NCBI GenBank assembly: GCA_947484175.1
Contig: CANKOI010000016.1
Span: 1-56,739, forward strand
Length of the DNA: 56,739 nucleotides
DNA from: Deltaproteobacteria bacterium
GTDB lineage: Bacteria > Myxococcota_A > UBA796 > SXON01
Reading direction: 5' to 3'
Below are positions 33,316 to 46,764 of the stretch, piece after piece; position 1 is the first letter of the stretch; each line of letters starts with the position of its first letter. A model generated the notes under the pieces. The model made no database searches, had not been told where the DNA came from, and saw only the letters and a program-made list of their open reading frames with translations. The position numbers were made by a program, and so were the translations under genes.

Positions 33316-34932
<1,617 letters not shown>

Positions 34933-34935
34933 GGC

Positions 34936-35295
34936 TCAGCCCTCCGCGCGGTCGGTGAGGTGCCGGCAGGCCTCGCTCAGCTCACGAGCCGCGACCACGG
35001 CACTCTGGAGGCCAGCAAGATCGAGAGAGTCGAGGCGTTCGAGCGCGACGCCGAGCCGGCCCACGAGGGCGTCGATCTCGGCGACTCCCAGCCCCGCCAC
35101 GGAGGGGCGTAGCCGCGCCCACAGCTGTACGCAGCTCTCGTCGCCGGCAGGCCCCCGCCGGGTGTGGCCGAGGTCGGCAGCGAGGGCCGAGCGGAGGTCG
35201 GCGGCAGTCGCATCCTCGCCGAGCCAGCGAGCTTCCAAGAACACATACTTTCCGAGATCGTGGCGGACCGCGCGGGCCGCCTCTTGGGCTGACAT
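34936..35295 (-). CDS. Small protein upstream of the regulator, function unknown
   Basis: A 119-residue protein, rich in Ala and Leu and predicted all-helical. It begins RHDLGKYVFLEARWLG, where HDLGKY recalls the helices of histidine-phosphotransfer or HAMP-linked proteins but does not match a full Hpt signature. No membrane segment or signal. It is cotranscribed with the regulator (3-base gap) and divergent from the selenoprotein genes across 90 bp, so it may be a sensor partner, phosphotransfer protein or inhibitor. Not recognised by family. Confidence 0.6.
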   Translation of the reverse strand: MSAQEAARAVRHDLGKYVFLEARWLGEDATAADLRSALAADLGHTRRGPAGDESCVQLWARLRPSVAGLGVAEIDALVGRLGVALERLDSLDLAGLQSAVVAARELSEACRHLTDRAEG

Positions 35296-35385: not shown

Positions 35386-36069
35386 ATGCTTCTCGCTCTT
35401 CTGTTCACCGGCTGCGCATCAGAGGTGTCGATCGATGTCGACGCCGACCAGGACGGCCTCCTCGGCAGCGAAGAAGCCGAGCTGGGCACCGACCCGGCGC
35501 TGGCCGACAGCGATGGCGACGGCGCCGATGACGGTGTCGAGCTCGACAACAGCACCGACCCGCTCGATGGCGGCGAGTACCCCTACAAGGGTGGCTGGGC
35601 GATCGATGCCTGTCACTCCGACATCAAGGGCGAAGGGTTCGCCGCGGGCGATGTGGGCGACGACTTCGCGCTCGCCGACCAGTTCGGGCAGGAAGTTCAC
35701 CTCTACAGCTTCTGCAACCGCGTGGTCTACATGGTCTTCGCCGCCTTCTGGTGAGGCGCGTGCGTATCCGAGGCCGGTGGCCTCGAAAGCTTCTACCAGG
35801 ACGGGAAAGACGACGGCCTGATGGTCTTAGAGATCATCACCGAGGTCGACGACGGCAGCGCCCCCGACACGGAGGACCTCGAAGGCTGGGCGGATGAATT
35901 CGGCCTCACGATGCCCGTGCTCGCCGACCCGGGTTCCACGATCCTGTACAGCTATGCGGAAGGGATGAGCAGCATCGGGCTGCCGTTCACGGTCGTAGTC
36001 GACCGCGGCGTGGTGATTGACTCCATTGCCAGCGGCAGCCAGATGTCGGTGGCGAGCGACCTGCTGTGA
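35386..36069 (+). CDS. Sec-containing thioredoxin-like lipoprotein with TSP3-type repeats (selenoprotein 1)
   Basis: A 227-residue protein, reading the in-frame TGA at 35752-35754 as selenocysteine (codon 123). It has a lipoprotein signal MLLALLFTGC (C10), a calcium-binding-like acidic region DVDADQDGLLGSEEAELGTD and DSDGDGADDG (16-60), and cysteines C76 and C110. The redox centre is FW-Sec-GAC (Sec123, C126), i.e. the CxxC of thioredoxin with Sec first. The C-terminal half fits a TlpA/redoxin fold: LMVLEII, EFGLTMPVLAD, and the cis-Pro loop IGLPFTVVVDRG. A hairpin suited to SelB lies just after the TGA. If the TGA were a true stop, the truncated product would end one residue before the redox centre. 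The GTGA overlap couples it to the next copy. Confidence 0.85.
35752..35785 (+). promoter_or_regulatory. Selenocysteine UGA with bSECIS-like hairpin (copy 1)
   Basis: TGA (35752-35754) is followed after 21 nt by a 3-nt apical loop GGU (35776-35778). The loop is closed by a perfect 7-bp stem, CGAGGCC (35769-35775) with GGCCTCG (35779-35785). The bacterial SECIS model asks for an apical loop 16-37 nt after the UGA, a stem of at least 4 bp and a G in the first two loop bases; all are met. SelB binds such elements to deliver Sec-tRNA. The same structure recurs in copy 2 with a compensatory pair. Confidence 0.8.
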
Positions 36070-36857
36070 GGGTGCTCACCTTGCTCGGCGGCGGGCTCCT
36101 GCTCGGCTGCGCCGGCCTCGCCACCGACGACACCGCCTCCAGCGGGTCGGGCGGCACGACCGACATCTTCGACGACGGGGGCGACGATGACACCGAAGCC
36201 CAGGAAGACGAAGGCAAGCTCGACGACGACGGCGACGGCCTCACGGCCGACGAAGAGGAGGCCCTAGGTACCGACCCCGACGAGGCCGACTCCGACGGCG
36301 ACGGCGTGGGCGATGGCGAAGAAGTGGAGCAGTCCACCGACCCCCTCGACGAAAGCGACCTCCCCTACGCGGGCGGCTGGGCCAAGGGCGCTTGCCGCAA
36401 CGACGTGAAGGCCGAGGGGTGGGGCGAAGGCGACGTGAGCCGCAACTTCACCATGGTGAACCAGTTCGACGAAGACGTGAGCCTCCACGACTTCTGCGAC
36501 CGTACCCTCTACTTGGTCTTCGCCGCCTTCTGGTGAGGCGCGTGCCAATCGGAGGCCGGTGGCCTCCAGACTGCATTCGAGAAGTACGAAGACGACGGGC
36601 TGATGATCCTCGAGATCATGATCGAGAACGATCGAGGCCAGACTCCCTCGGTGAGCGAGCTCGAGGACTGGGCTGCCCAGTACGATCTCACGATGCCCGT
36701 GCTGGCCGACGAGGATCTGGTGATCTACAACTACGCGGAAGCTTCGGGAAGTGGCGGCTCCGTAGGCCTTCCCTTCACGGTGGTGATGAAGGAAGGCGTC
36801 GTGATTGAGTCGATCGCGAGCGGATCGCAGCTCAACAAGGTCACGAGGTCGTTCTAG
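36066..36857 (+). CDS. Sec-containing thioredoxin-like lipoprotein with TSP3-type repeats (selenoprotein 2)
   Basis: A 263-residue paralogue of selenoprotein 1, with the in-frame TGA at 36534-36536 read as Sec157. The signal MRVLTLLGGGLLLGC gives a lipid anchor at C15, followed by an acidic linker and a TSP3/EF-type unit DDDGDGLTADEEEALGTD and DSDGDGVGDGEE (53-86). Cys110 and Cys144 align with C76 and C110 of copy 1. The redox centre is again FW-Sec-GAC (Sec157, C160), and the C-terminal redoxin half has LTMPVLADEDLVIYNY and the cis-Pro loop VGLPFTVVMKEG. The GTG at 36066 overlaps the previous stop (GTGA). About half the residues of the two proteins agree, concentrated around the TGA, so it looks like an old duplication under selection. 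Confidence 0.85.
36534..36567 (+). promoter_or_regulatory. Selenocysteine UGA with bSECIS-like hairpin (copy 2)
   Basis: TGA (36534-36536) is followed after 21 nt by the loop GGU (36558-36560), closed by GGAGGCC (36551-36557) and GGCCTCC (36561-36567). The bottom pair is G-C here but C-G in copy 1, a compensatory change that keeps the stem. The 32-nt block around the TGA (36514-36545) is identical to that of copy 1, though flanking codons differ. Confidence 0.8.
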
Positions 36858-36887: not shown

Positions 36888-39704
36888 TTGGGCCTCCCCC
36901 GCGAGGCTGGCTTGCTCCTGACGATTGCGATTCTCGCCCACTTGCAGTCGGCGCTCGCAGGCGCCGTACTCATCGGCACCGCGCCGATCCCCGCCGACGG
37001 AACCACCGCCTCTGAAGTGCGCGTTTACGTGGAGCGCTGCCCCGCCAACATGCGGGCCCGCGTAAAGACGGATGCCGGCAAGGTGAGCAGCGTGGCCAGC
37101 GGGGCCGACTGTGTCGTCACCTTCACGTGGCAACCCCCGGCGGTCACCACGCCGAGCCTCCTCCCGCTCACGGTGCAGGTGCAGTCCGACGAGTACACAG
37201 TGCAAATTCCGGTGGTGCCGCCCTTCGCAGGCGAGATCACCCTGAGCTTTGAGCCCGCGGCGATCGGCCCCGGCGAGACCGCCACCATCAAGGTGAAGCC
37301 CTCGGGCACCAGCCCCATCGCCGCCGACCGCCGACGCTTCAACCTCGCCGCCAGCGTCGGCACGGTCGGCTCGCCGGTTCCGCTCGGCGACGGCACCTAC
37401 GCCGCCCGCTACACCGCGCCGAAGAGCCTGCCGGGGCCAATCATGGTGGCGATCACCGCCGCCGACGCCTCGGCGCCTGCCGTGCAGGGCATCGGCGGGC
37501 TTCCGATCACGCTGAAGAAGACCGTCACCCTCGACGCTCCGGTGGGCAGCACCAGCGTACTCACCCTCGGAACGCGTCAGTACGGGCCGTTCAAGGCATC
37601 CAGCAAGAACAAGGTGTCCTTCGATGCCGAGCTCGACCCCCGGTACCCCAAGGGGCGGATCACCACGATCCTCGCCGACACGTCGCGGACCGAGAAGGAA
37701 GTGCCGATGCCGTCGGTGCCGCAGGAGGGGCAGTTGGTGTTCTTGCCGATGCCCGCGAGCGTGGTGGCGGGCACGTCGCTGCCGGTGCGAGTGGCGGCGC
37801 TCGGCCCCGACGGCAAGGCTCAGGTTGTATCGGGCATGCAGCTCACGGCGTCGGGGGGCACCCTCGCCGAGGTCACGCCCAACGGCACGGTCATCGCCGG
37901 CACGCTTCTGGCGCCCGCAGCGGCTCAGGAAATCACCCTCGGTGCCACCTGGAATGGCCTCACCACCAACCGCACCCTGAAGGTGCTGGCGCCCCTCCCT
38001 TCGATGACGCTCACCGCCGAGCCCGCCGACCTCCCCAAGGCCGGTGGCACCGTGAAGGTGCAGGCCCGCGTGAAGGACGGCTCGGGCACCTCGGTGGCCG
38101 GCCGCGCCCCCTCGATCGTAGTGGAAGGCGCCAAGGCGAGCGGCAAGGTCACCGACAACAAGGATGGCAGCTACGGCACCAGCGTGACCGGCTCCAGCTC
38201 CACCCAGAGCGTGAGCGTGCACGGCGCCCCCCAGATCGACGTGAGTAGCCTCGCTCCCGCACGGATCCTCGCCTGGGCCGTCTCCGGAACCGTGCTCAGC
38301 GACGGCAAGGACTCCACGTCGCTCACCCTCGTAGCGGTAGACGCCTACGATCTCCCTGTGCCCAACGTGGAGTTCGCGCTTGCCGTTCCCTACGGGGACG
38401 GCTCGCTTCCCCCCTCGGTGAAGAGCGACGCACGCGGTATCGCACACGTCAGCTACCGTTCCGGGGTCACGCCCGGATTGCAGACGCTGCGCATCCAAGC
38501 GGCCGGCCTCACGACGGAGCTGCCGCTGTTCCAAATCGGCAGCCGGATGTTCGTCACCCTCGCACCGGGCGGTGGGCCCGACCACCAAGCGGCTCTCGAC
38601 CGCTGGCGCCGCGCCGCGCCCACGCTCGTGATCATCCGCGAGGGGGTGTTCCCGCCCAGTGGCCCACCCGTCAGCCTGCAGATGAGCGCCACGCCCGGCT
38701 ACACCACCCCCGGCGGCACCATCGCGGTACAGGTGCGCCTCGCAGACGAGGGCGGCCTCGGCGCTGCCGGCCAGAAGGTGATGGTGTCTGGCGGTGCCGC
38801 CGCCGTCGGCCCGATCACCGACTCCCGCAACGGCAGCTACTCGTTCACGCTCACGCTCCCGGCCGGCGTGGATGGCCCCATCACGGTGAACGCGGCCGCG
38901 GGCCTCGCCACCGCATCGCTCGAGCTTCCCACGCTGGCGCAGGCGTCGAGGGCGGGGGGCGGGCTCACGGCTACGTCCGAGAACAGCTCGTCTTCGCGAG
39001 CGTCCACTTCGAGCGCCCCTCGGCGTGCGAACAAGGACGGTCCGGCCACCGGTCGGTTCGGCGGCACCATCGTGAACACCCGCGGCCCGTATGTTCAGGA
39101 CACGGATGGCGGGGGAGGGCTCGCCAACGCCTCCACCGAGGCCCCTGACAGCGGCTTCTTCGGTCTGGGACTGCATGGCACCTACGGGCTCGACGCGGGC
39201 CCCGGCCGCGTAGTGTTCGGTGGCGAGGCCCGCTTCATGGCGAATCTGTACACCGTGAACGCCAACAACGTGGTGCTCATCCCGCGCGACATCACGCTCG
39301 GTGGGCGCTACCTGCACCCGGTGGCCGACAACCTGCGGGTGGGCGGCGGGCTCGACCTCCACTCGCTCACCGCGCCCTACTACGTGTACGCCGACGCGGG
39401 GCGCACCTCGGCGAATCTCGCAGTCGGCGCATGGACAGGGGCGCGGCTCGTAGGCGAGCTCGACGTCGACCTCCCCACCGGCCTCCACTTCAAGAGCGAG
39501 CTGGGCCAGAGCTTCCTCACCGGCCCGTCGGCCACCCACCTCGGCGCCGCCCTCGACGCCCCGATGGGCGACATGCCTGTGGCGTTCCGGGCCGCGCTGA
39601 GCTGGGATTACCACTACCTCGCCACCACCGAGCTAGGCGCTACCGGCACGGTAGACGAGCATGTGTTGGCGTTACAGCTGGGCGCCACCTACGTTTTGGA
39701 CTGA
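36888..39704 (+). CDS. Large exported protein with Ig-like domains and C-terminal beta-barrel
   Basis: A 938-residue protein starting at TTG (36888) or TTG 36912. The signal peptide is LLLTIAILAHLQSALA, cleaved before GAV. It contains several Ig-like/invasin-type units with typical phrases such as GTAPIPADGTTASEVRVYV, GPGETATIKVKPSGTSPI, VSDGKDSTSLTLVAVDAYDLPVPN and ATPGYTTPGGTIAVQVRLADEGGLG. After a Ser-rich linker (about 690-720) the last 220 residues look like an outer-membrane beta-barrel (GLGLHGTYGLDAG, VGGGLDLHSLTAPYYVYADAG, ending LALQLGATYVLD). A surface adhesin or structural OM protein is likely. It starts 30 bp after the selenoprotein genes and may share their transcript. Confidence 0.7.
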   Translation: MGLPREAGLLLTIAILAHLQSALAGAVLIGTAPIPADGTTASEVRVYVERCPANMRARVKTDAGKVSSVASGADCVVTFTWQPPAVTTPSLLPLTVQVQSDEYTVQIPVVPPFAGEITLSFEPAAIGPGETATIKVKPSGTSPIAADRRRFNLAASVGTVGSPVPLGDGTYAARYTAPKSLPGPIMVAITAADASAPAVQGIGGLPITLKKTVTLDAPVGSTSVLTLGTRQYGPFKASSKNKVSFDAELDPRYPKGRITTILADTSRTEKEVPMPSVPQEGQLVFLPMPASVVAGTSLPVRVAALGPDGKAQVVSGMQLTASGGTLAEVTPNGTVIAGTLLAPAAAQEITLGATWNGLTTNRTLKVLAPLPSMTLTAEPADLPKAGGTVKVQARVKDGSGTSVAGRAPSIVVEGAKASGKVTDNKDGSYGTSVTGSSSTQSVSVHGAPQIDVSSLAPARILAWAVSGTVLSDGKDSTSLTLVAVDAYDLPVPNVEFALAVPYGDGSLPPSVKSDARGIAHVSYRSGVTPGLQTLRIQAAGLTTELPLFQIGSRMFVTLAPGGGPDHQAALDRWRRAAPTLVIIREGVFPPSGPPVSLQMSATPGYTTPGGTIAVQVRLADEGGLGAAGQKVMVSGGAAAVGPITDSRNGSYSFTLTLPAGVDGPITVNAAAGLATASLELPTLAQASRAGGGLTATSENSSSSRASTSSAPRRANKDGPATGRFGGTIVNTRGPYVQDTDGGGGLANASTEAPDSGFFGLGLHGTYGLDAGPGRVVFGGEARFMANLYTVNANNVVLIPRDITLGGRYLHPVADNLRVGGGLDLHSLTAPYYVYADAGRTSANLAVGAWTGARLVGELDVDLPTGLHFKSELGQSFLTGPSATHLGAALDAPMGDMPVAFRAALSWDYHYLATTELGATGTVDEHVLALQLGATYVLD

Positions 39705-39863: not shown

Positions 39864-40847
39864 CTAAAGCCCCTTCCACGACACGCTAGGCACACCCGAG
39901 CCCGCGGGGGGCGGGTTGGCGCCCACCATGTAGAGGGCGCGCCGGTTGAGGATGTTGTCTTCGCCATCGCCGGTGCGGACGGCGAGCAGGCCCTCGCCGA
40001 AGCCGTGGGTGAACACGGGGCCGGCGAACCCGTGGCCTTTTAGCCACTTGCCGATCGCGCGCGCGCGGCGGCCGCTCAGCTCCGCATTGTGTCCACCATC
40101 CCCCACCGTGTCCGTACAGCCGGCGATGTAGAGCTTCACGGGTACCATCGACCCGTACTTCTCCATCACGTCGTTGAGCTGGGCGAGCACCTTCGTGAGC
40201 TTCCATTCCTCGTCGGCGGCGATCACGTCGCTGTCGCTGGCGAAAAGCACATCGTCGTGGGGGATGTCGAGGAACCAGGGCGAGTAGGTGAAGCCGCTCC
40301 AGGCGCTGGCGTTGCGGAGGGTGACGTCGAGGATCACCACCTCGGAGGGATCGCCGACGAAGGGCACGCTCACGGGGCCCGGACCTGTGCCGAGCGCCAC
40401 GACCCGCTTGTCGAGGATCGCCTTGCCGGCGCCGTAGGCGGTGATCTCGGCTTCGTCTACGCGGGCGCTCGCCTTCACGGTGACCGTGCGCGCTTCGAGG
40501 TCCGCGCTCGCCCCGCTGAGGTCGACGGTCAGCGGCAGGGTGTACTGCCACTCCAGCGGCACATCCTGCTCCACCACGTCGCCGTCGGTGAACCCCGCCC
40601 GCACGAAACACTGGGCGGTGGTGACCTTCTCGTTGCGCGGGAACGTGACGGTCACCTGCGACATCGCCCGGATGCCCGTCTTTTCCACCTTCACCTGCTT
40701 GCCGCCCACGTTGCAGTCCACGAACAGGGTCTTCACGTCGCGGGTGGGGGTGAGCAAAAAGGCGGGACTCTCCTTGGGGCCGGGCGCGGGGGTGACGCCG
40801 AAGTCGAGGTCCTGGGCGGCGGCGAAGGTGGCGAGGAGCAAGATCAT
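39864..40847 (-). CDS. OmpA-like peptidoglycan-binding domain protein
   Basis: A 327-residue exported protein with a short signal peptide (MILLLATFAAAQ). Residues 25-200 are strand-rich and unrecognised. The C-terminal 120 residues match the OmpA/MotB domain: FASDSDVIAADEEWKLTKVLAQLNDVM, KLYIAGCTDTVGDGGHNAELSGRRARAIGKWLKGHGF and NRRALYMV. This domain binds diaminopimelate in peptidoglycan and tethers outer-membrane structures. It diverges from a lipoprotein gene with only 33 bp between. Confidence 0.83.
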   Translation of the reverse strand: MILLLATFAAAQDLDFGVTPAPGPKESPAFLLTPTRDVKTLFVDCNVGGKQVKVEKTGIRAMSQVTVTFPRNEKVTTAQCFVRAGFTDGDVVEQDVPLEWQYTLPLTVDLSGASADLEARTVTVKASARVDEAEITAYGAGKAILDKRVVALGTGPGPVSVPFVGDPSEVVILDVTLRNASAWSGFTYSPWFLDIPHDDVLFASDSDVIAADEEWKLTKVLAQLNDVMEKYGSMVPVKLYIAGCTDTVGDGGHNAELSGRRARAIGKWLKGHGFAGPVFTHGFGEGLLAVRTGDGEDNILNRRALYMVGANPPPAGSGVPSVSWKGL

Positions 40848-40880
40848 CCGGGTTCCTATCCGGGCGGCTACACTCCCGAC

Positions 40881-41531
40881 ATGACCCTGCTCCTCAGCCT
40901 GTTCGCCTGTTCGCCCGACCCTGCCGAAGCCGGGAAGGGCGACACGGGAAGGCCCGACACCGGAGGCCTCGATTCCGCCGAAACCGCCAGCGAGTCGGGT
41001 CAGGACACTGCGCTGGACACCAGCGAAGACACCGGTGCCACCGCGCTCCCCGACGCCCGCGACAAGATGGTGCGGAGCGGAGAAGACTGCGAGGAGATCG
41101 CCGGTCACACCGACGTGCCGGCGGCGCGCCTCTGGTACTGGGGGGAGCTCGCCGGAGATGCGGCCAGCGGCTTTACCGGTGTGGAAGCGTGGTACTTCTA
41201 CGGCAACAGCGCTTGGACCGCCTACGGACTCGAGGACTGCGAGGTGCACTTCGACCTCTCCGCGATCGAGGTGGTGGGCGCCGGCGGTTGCGACACCTGC
41301 GACTTCGGCGTGAACGTGACCGCAAACGTGAACCTCGACCGCACCACCTGCCTCGAAGGCCTCTACCGGGGCTACCAAGAGATGGCCGAGCAGTACGCCA
41401 TCGAGCTGCTCGGCGACGGCAGCGCCTCCTGGTACTTTCAGGGTTCGGGCAACCCGCTCGGCGATGGCTACTGGGACGCCTCGGGGGTGAACTACCTCGC
41501 CGACGACGGGTGCTCGCTGCCGGTGGACTGA
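40881..41531 (+). CDS. Putative lipoprotein of unknown fold
   Basis: A 216-residue protein with the minimal lipoprotein signal MTLLLSLFAC (C10) and a 45-residue D/T/G/S-rich linker. The folded part begins at KMVRSGEDCEEIAGHTD and has paired cysteines (DTCDF, TTCLEG, DDGCSLPVD), aromatic-rich strands (ARLWYWGELAG, GVEAWYFYGN, ASWYFQGSG) and no enzyme motif. It is probably a surface-anchored binding protein. It resembles the lipoprotein at 27647 in architecture but not in sequence. Confidence 0.65.
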   Translation: MTLLLSLFACSPDPAEAGKGDTGRPDTGGLDSAETASESGQDTALDTSEDTGATALPDARDKMVRSGEDCEEIAGHTDVPAARLWYWGELAGDAASGFTGVEAWYFYGNSAWTAYGLEDCEVHFDLSAIEVVGAGGCDTCDFGVNVTANVNLDRTTCLEGLYRGYQEMAEQYAIELLGDGSASWYFQGSGNPLGDGYWDASGVNYLADDGCSLPVD

Positions 41532-42420: not shown

Positions 42421-43782
42421 GTGCTGATCGTGAGCCCCTACCGCATGGCGCTCGACCCCGCCGAGGTCGCCTCCGGTCGCCCCTACCCCCCGTTGGGCAC
42501 CCTTGTGAGCGCCGCCGAACTGCGCGCGCGCGGGCTGCCCGTGGCCCTCTTCGACGCCACCATGCAGCCCGACGGGAAGGCCTTCGCGCTCGCGCTCTCG
42601 GGCCACCGGCCGCGCCGGGTGGCGATCGTGAGCGACCCCCACAGCGTTCCCGTGAAGATGTGCACCACCGCGCAACGCAGCGCCGCGCTGGAGATGGTTG
42701 CTCAGGCGCGGGCGAGCGGCGCTGAGGTGCTGGTGGCGGGGCCCGACCCGACGGACCACCCCGAGCCCTACGAGGCGGCTGGCGCCTCGGTCGTCGTGCG
42801 CGGCGAACACGACGACGCCGTTGTGGCCTTCGCGCTCGGCGAAGCGCCGCCCGAACGCTCAGGGCGTCCGAACCGCACCGACCTCAACGCCCTCCCCGAC
42901 CCCGCGTGGTCGATGGTCGACCTCCCCGCCTACGCGGCGCGCTGGCGGGCGCAGCACGGCCGCTGGGAGCTAAACCTCTCGACGGCCCGTGGCTGCCCCT
43001 ACCGCTGCAACTGGTGCGCGAAGCCCACGTGGGGCCGCAGCTACCAGTACGCCTCACCGGAGCGGGTCGCCCGCCAGATCGAGGCTCTCCGCGCCGGCCC
43101 CACCCCCCCGGACGGCTTGTGGTTCACCGACGACATCTTCGCCGTCAAGCCCGCATGGCTCCGCGCTTTCCGGGATCGGGTCGCCGGCACCCCCCTCCCC
43201 TTCCGCTGCAACACCCGAGCCGACCTCGTGCGCGAGGGCGCCTACGTGTCCGACCTCGCCGCCGCGGGCTGCACCGAGGTGTGGATGGGCGCCGAGAGCG
43301 GCAGCGACTCGGTGCTCGCCGCGATGGACAAAGACCAGACACGCGCCGACATCGAGCTGGCCACGCAGCGCCTGCGCGGCGCCGGCATCCGGGTGGGCTT
43401 CTTCCTCCAGCTTGGCTACCCCGGCGAGGGCTATCAGGAAGCGCTGGCCACGCTCGACATGGTGCGGCGGCTTCGCCCCGACGAGATCGGCGTGAGCGTG
43501 AGCTATCCCCTCCCCGGCACGCCCTTCCATGAGGCGGTGAGGGCCTCGCTCACCCGCACCCACTGGGCGAGCGCGATGGACAACGAGGTGCTTTTCGCCG
43601 GCGCCTTCCCCCAACCGTTCTACGCGGCGATGCGCGAGCTGCTGCGCGCCGAGCACGCCTGGCTGAGCTTCCGCCCCTCCCTCGACCGCCGCGGACTACG
43701 GCGCGCCAGCGCTCTCCCGTGGCACGCAGCGCGGTGGCCGCTGCACCGTGCCCGCACCGCCTGGTACGGCCGCCAGAGCTAA
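42421..43782 (+). CDS. B12-binding-type radical SAM protein
   Basis: A 453-residue enzyme. The N-terminal 140 residues resemble the cobalamin-binding domain of the B12-binding radical SAM family (SPYRMAL, RPYPPLGTLVSAAELRARG), without an obvious DxHxxG. The radical SAM core holds the [4Fe-4S] motif CPYRCNWC (C192, C196, C199), with FTDDIFAVKP, WMGAESGSDSVLAAMDK and GFFLQLGYPGE. Such enzymes catalyse methylation or other radical chemistry in lipid, bacteriochlorophyll or natural-product synthesis. It starts at GTG and converges with the next gene; their stop codons overlap (43779-43782). Confidence 0.87.
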   Translation: MLIVSPYRMALDPAEVASGRPYPPLGTLVSAAELRARGLPVALFDATMQPDGKAFALALSGHRPRRVAIVSDPHSVPVKMCTTAQRSAALEMVAQARASGAEVLVAGPDPTDHPEPYEAAGASVVVRGEHDDAVVAFALGEAPPERSGRPNRTDLNALPDPAWSMVDLPAYAARWRAQHGRWELNLSTARGCPYRCNWCAKPTWGRSYQYASPERVARQIEALRAGPTPPDGLWFTDDIFAVKPAWLRAFRDRVAGTPLPFRCNTRADLVREGAYVSDLAAAGCTEVWMGAESGSDSVLAAMDKDQTRADIELATQRLRGAGIRVGFFLQLGYPGEGYQEALATLDMVRRLRPDEIGVSVSYPLPGTPFHEAVRASLTRTHWASAMDNEVLFAGAFPQPFYAAMRELLRAEHAWLSFRPSLDRRGLRRASALPWHAARWPLHRARTAWYGRQS

Positions 43783-45377
43783 CGCCGGGGGCGCCAGCGC
43801 ACGGCGGGGGGGATGCCCGCGGCGATGCGACGAACCTTGCTGCCCAGTCTCTTGCGCGGCACCGGGGCCGTTCCGGTATCCGGGTCGGCAGGGCTCGCAG
43901 CCTCGATCGTGGCGACGGTAGCCGTGTCGGGTTCGATCGCCACCGTACCGGTGTCGAAGATGCCCTCTACGACGATGGCCTCGTCGGCGCCGTCGCAGTC
44001 TTGGTCGATGCTGTCGCCCGCCACCTCGTCGGCGCCGAGGGAGATGCCGTTGTCGCCGTCGTCGCAGTCGCCATCGGCCACGGTCATGCCGTCGCCGTCG
44101 AGATCGCCGGCTACGTCACTGATGTAGCCGGGCGAGGTCCACACGTATTCGAGGGTGTCGCTGCCTCCGTCGTCGCAGCCGGCGCTGCCGTACCAGAGGT
44201 CGCCATCGATCTCCACCGATACGTACACCCACCCTGACGCGTCGGCGGTATCGAGGGTGGTGCTCCACTCCCCGCCGCCGAGGTCGTCCATGGTGAACCG
44301 CGAGGCCGGCGTAACGGCGACCACCTCGATCACGTAGGCCGCAAGGCTCTCCGGCACCGCCACGAGCACGTCGAGCTCCTGCCCGGTAGGCAGGCCGACG
44401 GACTCGCCGAGGGTGGCGAGGCTGGCGCCACCACTCTCGAAACGGAGCTCGACGGGGAGCGCCGGACCGGTGGTGGCGAGCGTTCGATGCTCGACCATCG
44501 CGTCGTAGATCGCCATGCGGTCGAAGGTGTCGGCCGTGGGAATGGCCACAACCGTGAGCCCGCCGCCGTAGGGATGGCTCTTCATCTCCGTGTCGAGCGA
44601 GCAGACATCGCCGGCGCGGGAGTTGTGCTTGTCGCTAGCGGCCACGAATCCCATCTCCAGCGCGAGCCCATCGGGGTCGATCGCCTCCAGAACGGTGCTG
44701 CCGGCGTGCTCCCCGCTCCACACGTCGTCGTAGCCGAGGCCGTCGCCCAGACTGTTGCCGTGCTCGGAGTAAATCTCCACGACCGGCTCGAAGGAGAGCT
44801 GGTAGCAGCTCCAATCCGTCCACATCGGCATGGTGACGGCCGGGTGGTGCGGGATCAGCAGCATGGAACCCCAGGTGGCCGCTAGATTCGTTGCCCAGGT
44901 CTCCAGCGCCGAGCAGCTCCCCACGTCGACATCGGTCGTGCCTACCGGCTGCAGGTCGGTGAGCGTGATCGCCGCGAGGCTGGCGTCGTCCTCAAACATG
45001 AGCAGCGTGCGGTGGCCGAGGTGCGCGCCCGCCACCTGCGCCCAGATTTCGGCGGCGGGAATGGTCACGAAGCCCCCCGCTTCGTCGAGCTCACTCGCCG
45101 CGAGCGTGAAGTTGTCGGCCATGCCCGACGCGGACGCCGCCGCCGTCGTCCCGTTCACATGGTCAGACACCGCCATGAAATCGAGTCCGTTGTCTCTCCC
45201 TGACGTGTACACATCGGCCCATGCCCCGCAATCGCCGTCGCAGGTGAGGTCGGAGGAGCCCCCGTCGCCAGAAACGCCGGTGTGAACGTGGAAGTCGCCG
45301 TAGTAGTATGTGAAGTCGCCGAACTCGTCGGCCGCGAATGCAGCGCTGAGGAGCAGGGGAAGCAGCGGCGGAACCAC
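43779..45377 (-). CDS. Exported PHP-domain protein with MopE-like metal-binding motif
   Basis: A 532-residue exported protein. GTG 45377 gives the signal peptide MVPPLLPLLLSAAFA. The PHP phosphoesterase-type domain has YGDFHVHTGVSGDGG (H30, H32), FMAVSDHVNG, LIPHHPAVTM and FVAASDKHNSRAG, giving the metal-binding His/Asp set, as in DUF3604-type proteins. A strand-rich domain follows, then the calcium-like motif DGDGMTVADGDCDDGDNGIS and DSIDQDCDGADE, typical of myxobacterial MopE-type proteins. The C-terminus is a Thr/Ala-rich tail ending in a basic run. The substrate is not evident. An upstream in-frame ATG is possible but would spoil the signal peptide. Confidence 0.75.
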   Translation of the reverse strand: MVPPLLPLLLSAAFAADEFGDFTYYYGDFHVHTGVSGDGGSSDLTCDGDCGAWADVYTSGRDNGLDFMAVSDHVNGTTAAASASGMADNFTLAASELDEAGGFVTIPAAEIWAQVAGAHLGHRTLLMFEDDASLAAITLTDLQPVGTTDVDVGSCSALETWATNLAATWGSMLLIPHHPAVTMPMWTDWSCYQLSFEPVVEIYSEHGNSLGDGLGYDDVWSGEHAGSTVLEAIDPDGLALEMGFVAASDKHNSRAGDVCSLDTEMKSHPYGGGLTVVAIPTADTFDRMAIYDAMVEHRTLATTGPALPVELRFESGGASLATLGESVGLPTGQELDVLVAVPESLAAYVIEVVAVTPASRFTMDDLGGGEWSTTLDTADASGWVYVSVEIDGDLWYGSAGCDDGGSDTLEYVWTSPGYISDVAGDLDGDGMTVADGDCDDGDNGISLGADEVAGDSIDQDCDGADEAIVVEGIFDTGTVAIEPDTATVATIEAASPADPDTGTAPVPRKRLGSKVRRIAAGIPPAVRWRPRR

Positions 45378-45477
45378 AGCGGGATCGTAGGCGACACGCG
45401 GTGAGGGTACAAGTCCCGCGAGCGCGAAAGCCTGACAATTTCTGGACATCCGGTACGGAGGGCCCTCCGCCCCCCCC

Positions 45478-46764
45478 TCACCGCCCCGGTCCGATCCTTC
45501 GGAGCCCTCGCAAGGGGGCCGCAACGCGCGGGGCGAGCGCGGCGGCGATGGCGCCGTCCTCGCCCGGGCGCGCAGCCACGCGGAACGGCAACGGCGAACT
45601 CTTGCCAACCTCGGCCTGCAACAGCGCACCCGCCGGCCCTTGCAGCATGCTGCCGCCGCACTCCACGGCCTGCATCCCCACCAGCAGCGCCGCGAACTCC
45701 TGCAACACCCCCACCATGACCGCCGCCAGCCGGCGCACCACCTCGGCTCCCGCGGGATTCCCCGCCTCCAGCGCTGCCCGCAAGGCGAGGCCCGCTTCGG
45801 CCGGCACCGCCTCGATGCCACAGGCGGCCAGCACGTGGCCCACGCCGAGGTTGCTCAGGTACGTGCGCATCGCACCGGTAAGCGGCAGGTAGGTGTGCGC
45901 GAGAGCGTCGGGGCCCACATCCACCACCAACCGACCCATCTCGGTGGCCACGACGTCGCCGTCCGCGTCGATCCAGCACCCCCCAAAACTCGTGCCGATC
46001 TGCACGCGCACGAGGCGCCGGGCGCCCCCCGCCGAGAGGTACCTCCCGAGCGTGCTGAGGTCGTTGAAACACACGACCGGCCCCTCCACGAGGCCGTCGG
46101 CCACCCGCTCGGCAAAGCCATCGAAGGCGGATGTGCTGCCGACCCGCTCGCGCAGAATCGTCGAGAGCTCGAGCACCTGCCCCCCCACGCCGAGCGGCGC
46201 CGCCAGCCCGATGCCCAGCGAGCCCACGGCCTCGCCCGCCGCCGCCTCCACTAAGAGGGCGCGAGACCGCCGGATCAGCGACTCGATGCCGAACTCCCCT
46301 GGCGGCCAGGTGGCGCCGCCCGCGCTGCCCACCACGGCCTCGGCACGCATCGCAACCACCTTCATGCTGGTGCCGCCGATGTCGAGCCCCAGCGCGAGGC
46401 CGGGGCCTGGCTGCTGCAACACCGGGCGGTCCACGCTGGGCACGTCGAGCTGCCGGCGCGACTCCACCGGGGCCGGCGCCACGAAGAACGGCACCTGATG
46501 CACGGCGCGAACCCTGCTGAGCGCGGGTTCGAGCTCGGCCTCTGGCAGCGGCGCCACCACCTCCACCGCGGCGGGGTTGGAGAGCAGGCTGGCGTTGTGC
46601 GCGCGGGCCAGCACGGGCCACACCGACCGCCCAAGCGCGGGGGCGAACACCACGAACTCGCGAGGCGAGGAGGCTGTCCCCCAAGTTCGGTGGAGCCGGA
46701 TGCGCCACGGCACGGCGAGGGGATGCCGCCCGAGGTCGGCGAGCGTGTCGGCCAGGGTGCGCAC
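45478..46764 (-). CDS. ROK-family sugar kinase-like protein
   Basis: A 428-residue protein whose ROK domain begins near residue 125 with LGLDIGGTSMKVV, the phosphate-1 motif, and GLGIGLAAPLG-type and QIGTSFGGCW segments follow. The usual EIGH and zinc-binding CxCGxxG motifs are absent (EMGRLVVDVG instead), so it may not be an active glucokinase. The N-terminal 120 residues (RHPLAVPWRIRLHRTWG onward) are unrelated to ROK and unidentified. The GTG start lies 2 bases after the M1 peptidase stop, so it is in the same transcript. Confidence 0.72.
   Translation of the reverse strand: MRTLADTLADLGRHPLAVPWRIRLHRTWGTASSPREFVVFAPALGRSVWPVLARAHNASLLSNPAAVEVVAPLPEAELEPALSRVRAVHQVPFFVAPAPVESRRQLDVPSVDRPVLQQPGPGLALGLDIGGTSMKVVAMRAEAVVGSAGGATWPPGEFGIESLIRRSRALLVEAAAGEAVGSLGIGLAAPLGVGGQVLELSTILRERVGSTSAFDGFAERVADGLVEGPVVCFNDLSTLGRYLSAGGARRLVRVQIGTSFGGCWIDADGDVVATEMGRLVVDVGPDALAHTYLPLTGAMRTYLSNLGVGHVLAACGIEAVPAEAGLALRAALEAGNPAGAEVVRRLAAVMVGVLQEFAALLVGMQAVECGGSMLQGPAGALLQAEVGKSSPLPFRVAARPGEDGAIAAALAPRVAAPLRGLRRIGPGR

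Follow-up and report, generated by a model that had tools for sequence, protein, structure and literature searches.

The stretch of DNA analyzed here, referred to as the window (56,739 nucleotides), belongs to a genome assembly of 4.37 Mb that is 94.7% complete and consists of 167 contigs. Two adjacent genes on its forward strand each have one in-frame TGA, and the TGA stop of the first overlaps the start of the second, with four bases shared (Table 1). In both genes the in-frame TGA occupies the first position of a CxxC-type motif, in the context FAAFW-TGA-G-A-C, with Trp directly before it and Cys at position +3, which is where an initial annotation of the sequence had placed it. The same annotation stated that reading continues in frame for more than 100 codons with a redoxin C terminus. 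This was borne out, because the frame past the TGA is open for 104 codons in gene 1, up to a TGA stop, and for 106 codons in gene 2, up to a TAG stop, and the stretches MPVLAD and GLPFTVV are found behind the TGA.

Table 1. Features of the tandem gene pair and its neighborhood (window coordinates)
Feature	Position	Strand	Basis or remark
Sigma-54-dependent response regulator	33316..34932	-	relatives in 12/20 family loci, window counted
119-aa protein without Pfam match	34936..35295	-	relatives in 9/20 family loci, window counted
Gene 1, predicted selenoprotein of 227 aa (Sec123, UGAC)	35386..36069	+	ATG start, uncertain
Gene 1 predicted short lipoprotein signal MLLALLFTGC, lipobox FTGC	35386..35415	+	pattern only
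Gene 1 Cys76, counterpart of gene 2 Cys110	35611..35613	+	likely structural disulfide
Gene 1 Cys110, counterpart of gene 2 Cys144	35713..35715	+	likely structural disulfide
Gene 1 in-frame TGA, predicted Sec123	35752..35754	+	reading frame and homologue column
Gene 1 predicted bSECIS hairpin CGAGGCC[GGT]GGCCTCG	35769..35785	+	-11.5 kcal/mol
Gene 2, predicted selenoprotein of 263 aa (Sec157, UGAC)	36066..36857	+	GTG start
Gene 2 predicted lipoprotein signal and lipobox LLGC (Cys15)	36066..36110	+	pattern only
Gene 2 bacterial TSP3 repeat, residues 75-95, predicted calcium-binding stalk	36288..36350	+	30.3 bits, cut-off 25
Gene 2 Cys110	36393..36395	+	sequence, alignment
Gene 2 Cys144	36495..36497	+	sequence, alignment
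Gene 2 in-frame TGA, predicted Sec157	36534..36536	+	reading frame and homologue column
Gene 2 predicted bSECIS hairpin GGAGGCC[GGT]GGCCTCC	36551..36567	+	-12.4 kcal/mol
Gene 2 Pro236, predicted cis-Pro (GLPF)	36771..36773	+	invariant in 57 chosen rows of alignment A1
938-aa protein, Invasin_D3 and Big_1-like matches	36888..39704	+	relatives in 14/20 family loci, window counted
OmpA-family protein	39864..41378	-	relatives in 10/20 family loci, window counted

TGA had also been described as a working stop elsewhere in the window, and 3 of the 12 genes checked do end in TGA, namely, gene 1, the 119-aa gene, and the 938-aa gene. Because gene 1 and two neighbors end in TGA, the code is not reassigned. 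The TGA might nevertheless be read as another amino acid, through reassignment or leaky read-through, and 2 of 83 homologues (P0030 and P0039) do have Trp at the corresponding column. However, TGA ends gene 1 and two of ten neighbors checked, the genome has a full Sec system, and most homologues have Cys, not Trp, at this position, so that this explanation is scarcely credible.

Homologues and the TGA column

The homologue search scored 7,987 candidates, of which 1,028 passed an E value of 1e-3, and the best 120 of these were listed. Among the listed matches, 85 sequences, counting the window's two, are full length; 70 of these have Cys at the column, 4 have Ala, 4 Ser, and 2 Trp, 2 are gapped there, and 3 have other residues. 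The check for Cys homologues that the initial annotation had proposed thus gave Cys in 68 of the 83 other full-length homologues among the matches listed. The Trp of P0030 and P0039 (FWWGSC and FWWSSC) is perhaps the gene caller's reading of TGA.

Thirty-seven of the best 120 of the 1,028 homologues are shorter than 190 aa, and all 37, as judged from the protein sequence, end in Trp just before the UGA column; one of them (P0003) is the window's own truncated product. Standard annotation thus does lose the second half of the protein, as had been foreseen, in about a third of the matches listed. The shared length and end of the 37 entries could also be taken to mean that the TGAs are true stops, with short TSP3 lipoproteins of 122 and 156 aa as the products and the remainder decayed. 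This is contradicted by Cys at the column in 68/83 homologues, by TGA in 56 copies, by the hairpin and the Sec machinery described below, and by purifying selection on the codons past the TGA. Nine orthologue pairs, two of which include window genes, gave dN/dS values of 0.05 to 0.39 in up to 90 codons behind the TGA and of 0.08 to 0.62 in the 80 codons before it, and the value was lower behind than before in six of the nine. The low values behind the TGA indicate that the tail is not decayed, and true stops are hardly a serious prospect. Genuine stop, pseudogene, and code reassignment were all rejected on the column, the TGA copies, the hairpin, and dN/dS.

At the DNA level, 81 distinct copies were compared. 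They came from 71 chosen loci (best matches, then 20 regions without and 20 with TGA), 69 of which yielded copies; from 92 aligned stretches, 6 gapped at the column and 5 duplicates were dropped. The column was TGA in 56 copies, Cys (TGC/TGT) in 21, Ser in 2, Pro in 1, and Asp in 1, proportions that do not represent natural frequencies because the loci were chosen. Cys was present at +3 (UxxC) in all 56 TGA copies. A tree of 80 of these rows, with Sec and the 12 following codons masked, requires at least seven changes between Sec and Cys as drawn, and its well-supported branches force fewer (four for the Sec group and three for the Cys group). Sec and Cys have likely switched repeatedly in the family, with neither the number nor the direction of the changes fixed by the tree.

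The search covered 58 genomes of the order, every one of which has a match at an E value of 1e-3, although some of these matches are not redoxins; the window's own genome has 11 such matches, several of them in the repeat region only. In the wider class, 70 of 71 genomes have a match at 1e-10, and TGA-bearing rows occur in other families of the class (G064, G068, G069, and G070), where TGA was scored per row rather than at the column. At least two adjacent TGA copies are present in 9 of 11 genomes of the same genus and in G012. One genome, G009, has three adjacent TGA copies and a fourth copy without Sec or CxxC. In this fourth tandem copy (G009:C15:38622-39110), Asp stands at the Sec column and the Cys at +3 is missing (SQDGPT), with the extra Cys pair described below retained; by its sequence the copy is likely a redox-inactive paralogue.

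A scan of named genomes with one protein as the query found no relative, and an alignment of 57 diverse rows yielded no conserved stretch; a closer alignment of 13 sequences as the query recovered 13 named loci carrying the family. Ten of these carry the title Deltaproteobacteria or Proteobacteria, and the sources of several homologues give the name Myxococcota. The other three records (L125, L127, and L130) are titled Klebsiella pneumoniae (two) and Bifidobacterium breve (one), MAG titles that look wrong.

Selenocysteine machinery and a bSECIS-type hairpin

The check for Sec machinery that had been suggested found all four components over cut-off in the genome: tRNA-Sec with anticodon TCA (65.7 bits, cut-off 47; the sole match over cut-off among ten), selA (458.7 bits, cut-off 267.9), selB (307 bits, cut-off 242.25), and selD (388.1 bits, cut-off 125). 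Among 14 control genomes, tRNA-Sec was over cut-off in 5, selA in 1, selB in 2, and selD in 2. The selD gene itself (G000:C36:25228-26151, minus strand) has an in-frame TGA in HGGG-U-GCK, with a GGC-loop hairpin behind it, and is thus a predicted selenoprotein gene, by sequence a second case of UGA read as Sec in this genome.

Across the order, selA was over cut-off in 48 of 58 genomes and tRNA-Sec, in a search run with stricter filters, in 45; neither was over cut-off in 6 (G040, G042, G044, G053, G055, and G056). Among the matches listed, a TGA copy was present in 35 of 52 genomes with selA or tRNA-Sec versus 1 of 6 with neither (P = 0.025; the genomes are incomplete), and selA alone had no significant association with TGA copies (32/48 versus 4/10; P = 0.11). 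Four genomes have a TGA copy and no selA over cut-off; tRNA-Sec is present in three of them (G002, G008, and G015), and G056, which is 77% complete, has neither. Four others (G025, G026, G034, and G041) have selA over cut-off and TGA-bearing matches listed, with no tRNA-Sec over the Rfam cut-off. It is possible that a divergent tRNA-Sec, the stricter search filters, or assembly gaps account for these four.

Behind the TGA of each window gene lies a hairpin with a 7-bp stem and a GGT loop, 21 nt from the UGA. The outermost stem pair is swapped between the genes, C-G in gene 1 and G-C in gene 2. Both hairpins fall within the bSECIS limits given in the relevant passages of PMC13188914, which are an apical loop of 3 to 9 nt, an upper stem of 4 to 16 bp, a distance of 16 to 37 nt from the UGA, a G in the first two loop bases, and a minimum free energy of at most -7.5 kcal/mol. 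The copy in G012 has the hairpin GGAGACC[GGC]GGTCTCC, and copies on other branches have different stems and a similar loop, e.g., GCTCCA[GGTC]TGGAGC.

A local hairpin score of at least 14 was reached by 50 of 56 TGA copies versus 4 of 21 Cys copies (P = 8e-9), in a Fisher test that overstates independence because the copies share ancestry, and with a P value that is descriptive because the score was chosen after the folding-energy null result and after the sequences had been viewed. Several of the Cys copies stem from distant branches of the tree. A G in the first two loop bases was found in 54/56 TGA copies versus 7/21 Cys copies; the four copies with other residues at the column were scored for the hairpin and stand outside this comparison. 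When the folding energy of the whole segment was compared with synonymous resampling, TGA and Cys copies were not separated (mean z, -0.36 versus 0.11; P = 0.09). Given the encoded protein, the single window hairpins were not exceptional under synonymous resampling (P = 0.10 for gene 1 and 0.06 for gene 2). A P value of at most 0.05 was obtained in 14 of 56 TGA copies and in none of 21 Cys copies.

Selenocysteine is well supported, because the column, the UxxC motif, the hairpin, the machinery, dN/dS, and the short database entries agree, and on these lines of sequence evidence it is almost certainly encoded at both TGA sites. The computational outcomes that the initial annotation had named as able to refute it came out in its favor. 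The hairpin, the mixture of Cys, Sec, and inactive copies in the family, the gene neighborhood, and the co-occurrence of the extra Cys pair go beyond what the initial annotation had described.

Predicted fold, location, and function

The Pfam redoxin matches of both read-through proteins span the TGA. With Cys at the TGA, AhpC-TSA (PF00578) scored 45.7 and 46.4 bits (cut-off 26; E values of 7.4e-12 and 4.6e-12) for genes 1 and 2, respectively, and Redoxin (PF08534) scored 35.4 and 32.2 bits (cut-off 26.6). No NCBIfam model reached its cut-off for P0001 or P0002. The ResA model NF002854 scored 38.4 and 39.8 bits, below its curated cut-off of 170, and the proteins are therefore termed ResA-like rather than ResA; the ResA model was matched by 57 of 57 rows, below cut-off where shown. 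A structure model computed from 57 sequences with Cys in place of Sec had a mean pLDDT of 88.8, with low confidence for about 50 N-terminal residues. Foldseek ranked ResA structures first, with AhpE and Bcp structures also among the matches, and the profile ranking put Etrx2 (2yp6) first and ResA second. Both window genes have a Glu six residues past Sec, as do 39 of the 56 TGA copies, at the place of ResA Glu80, of which an E80Q entry is among the Foldseek matches. Pro236 of gene 2 we take to be the cis-Pro of the redoxin fold.

Alignment A1 comprises 57 of the 85 full-length sequences, mostly CxxC-bearing, and the invariance of CxxC in it is partly a matter of choice because most rows were picked with that motif. 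The initial annotation had described both proteins as having a lipobox and TSP3-type calcium repeats. Gene 2 fits this description, for the lipobox by pattern: LLGC is present, Cys15 is conserved in 90% or more of the 57 A1 rows, and TSP3 (PF18884) is over its cut-off of 25 bits. Gene 1 fits less well, since its FTGC lies behind only nine residues with no basic residue among them and its TSP3 match, at 18.5 bits, is under the cut-off; because the predicted signal is so short, its start codon is uncertain. A lipid-anchored location at the envelope is predicted and, in our estimate, very probable.

The two extra conserved Cys that had been pointed out are both present in 76 of 85 homologues, with neither in 7 and a single one in 2 (C110 was sought within three columns), and 12 sequences without CxxC retain the pair. 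Inspection of the 81 DNA copies by eye gave both in 76, neither in 4, and one in 1. Because the two Cys co-occur, C110 and C144 likely form a structural disulfide of the exported domain.

The kind of reaction catalyzed is predicted with less assurance. Pfam ranks AhpC-TSA first for both proteins, with GSHPx weakly below cut-off; there are weak matches to thiol peroxidase and glutathione peroxidase, and the AhpE and Bcp structures were noted above, all of which would suit peroxidases of the AhpC/TSA or GPx type that use Sec to detoxify envelope hydroperoxides. However, the redox center is W-U-x-x-C rather than the TxxC/TxxU of peroxiredoxins, ResA comes first by fold, and Etrx2 and ResA lead by profile, with the ResA model matched across all rows. 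The peroxiredoxin motif PxxxTxxC/U, as given in a passage of PMC13188914, is absent, and AFWUGAC stands in its place. We therefore consider a peroxidase unlikely and a disulfide reductase the probable function.

The reading that we favor, and judge reasonably probable as a whole, is that the pair encodes tandem predicted Sec-containing UxxC redoxins of the ResA/TlpA-like type, lipid-anchored outside the cytoplasm on a predicted TSP3 stalk, that act as envelope disulfide reductases. Sec would be inserted by SelB with Sec-tRNA upon recognition of the hairpin 21 nt past the UGA. The lipobox, together with the acidic TSP3 stretch, is predicted to hold the domain away from the membrane, and the C110-C144 disulfide, as the co-occurrence of its Cys suggests, may stabilize the exported domain. 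Sec would attack disulfides or other oxidized groups of envelope proteins, and the mixed selenosulfide would be resolved by the Cys at +3. The genome encodes a DsbD-type membrane protein (DsbD_TM, 168.1 bits), which could re-reduce the redox center. We would guess that the paralogues divide substrates or back-up roles between them.

Known relatives and gene neighborhood

UxxC redoxins are a known kind of selenoprotein, as entries in PMC13188914, PMC2398784, and PMC9312934 indicate. Table 1 of the 2026 prokaryotic selenoprotein inventory (PMC13188914) lists a Prx-like thiol:disulfide oxidoreductase (PF00578, UxxC) and a Redoxin family protein (PF08534, UxxC), and Prx-like 1 and 3 of the GOS study (PMC2398784) are UxxC redoxin selenoproteins. 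These share the Pfam families and the UxxC motif with the window proteins, whereas their descriptions, the only basis of the comparison, name no lipobox, TSP3 stalk, extra Cys pair, or same-family tandem in the sections concerned. Adjacent selenoprotein genes as such are already on record in part of PMC13188914. The TlpA family in Table 1 of that inventory likewise combines a TlpA-type fold with Sec, but its entry gives the motif as UGC rather than UxxC. Sec in a TlpA-type fold also occurs in an algal TlpA selenoprotein family (PMC7539508), one member of which carries a hemerythrin domain, and the TlpA passages of PMC7539508 and PMC2397514 name no lipobox or TSP3 form.

Among non-Sec proteins, the ResA/TlpA oxidoreductases are the top fold match, are among the top profile matches, and share the place of the Glu, but ResA has Cys where the window genes have Sec. 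Etrx1 and Etrx2 are described in part of PMC3914529 as paired surface thioredoxin-fold lipoproteins of Streptococcus pneumoniae with MsrAB2 as the redox partner. They (2yp6 and 4hqz) resemble the pair in being two lipid-anchored extracellular thioredoxin-fold proteins, and 2yp6 is the best single profile match; they differ in having Cys, a Gram-positive host, and the partner MsrAB2. With the Sec-motif thioredoxin-fold family NF053656 (TUGYCR motif) the window proteins scored 11.8 and 12.2 bits versus a cut-off of 100. NF041054 (ResA-like, WAxxUGC motif) was not among the matches of P0001 and P0002 and matched 42 of 57 rows at an E value of at most 0.001.

The UxxC kind is thus known, and in the open literature searched we found no description of the lipobox/TSP3 Sec-redoxin subfamily or of such a same-family pair, and nothing joining selenoproteins with thrombospondin type 3. 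If our reading is correct, it adds a selenoprotein subfamily that is often stored in databases as truncated proteins (37 of the best 120 of 1,028 homologues), and gene-calling models could be corrected by it. It would also present Sec/Cys exchange within one order, with the hairpin mostly kept with UGA and mostly absent with Cys, and would suggest that poorly known bacteria use selenium at the cell envelope.

The neighborhood was compared across 20 loci picked for holding the family, by ORF picking and BLAST clustering, with domains assigned on the window proteins (Table 1). The regulator and the 119-aa gene stand divergently upstream of the pair. Since the invasin/Big_1-like protein has relatives close to the family in 14 of the 20 loci, the pair might serve this neighbor, for instance, as reductases of wrong disulfides while it is being exported. 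The two Cys of the neighbor are kept in only 8 of 14 relatives, however, and 2 of the 14 lack Cys altogether, which makes such a dedicated role improbable.

A wider reading than that of envelope disulfide reductases is that a class-wide, unnamed family of exported Sec-redoxins on calcium-repeat stalks serves the outer envelope as a redox system dependent on selenium. Its tandem paralogues would be conserved with the sigma-54 regulator and the invasin-like protein, many genomes would hold extra Sec, Cys, and inactive copies, and the SEAGGL codons behind Sec would double as the SECIS element. We put this forward tentatively, as somewhat short of an even prospect.

Farther downstream in the window (43779-45821, minus strand) lies a gene for a 680-aa protein with weak matches to DUF3604 and to a MopE-type copper-binding motif.
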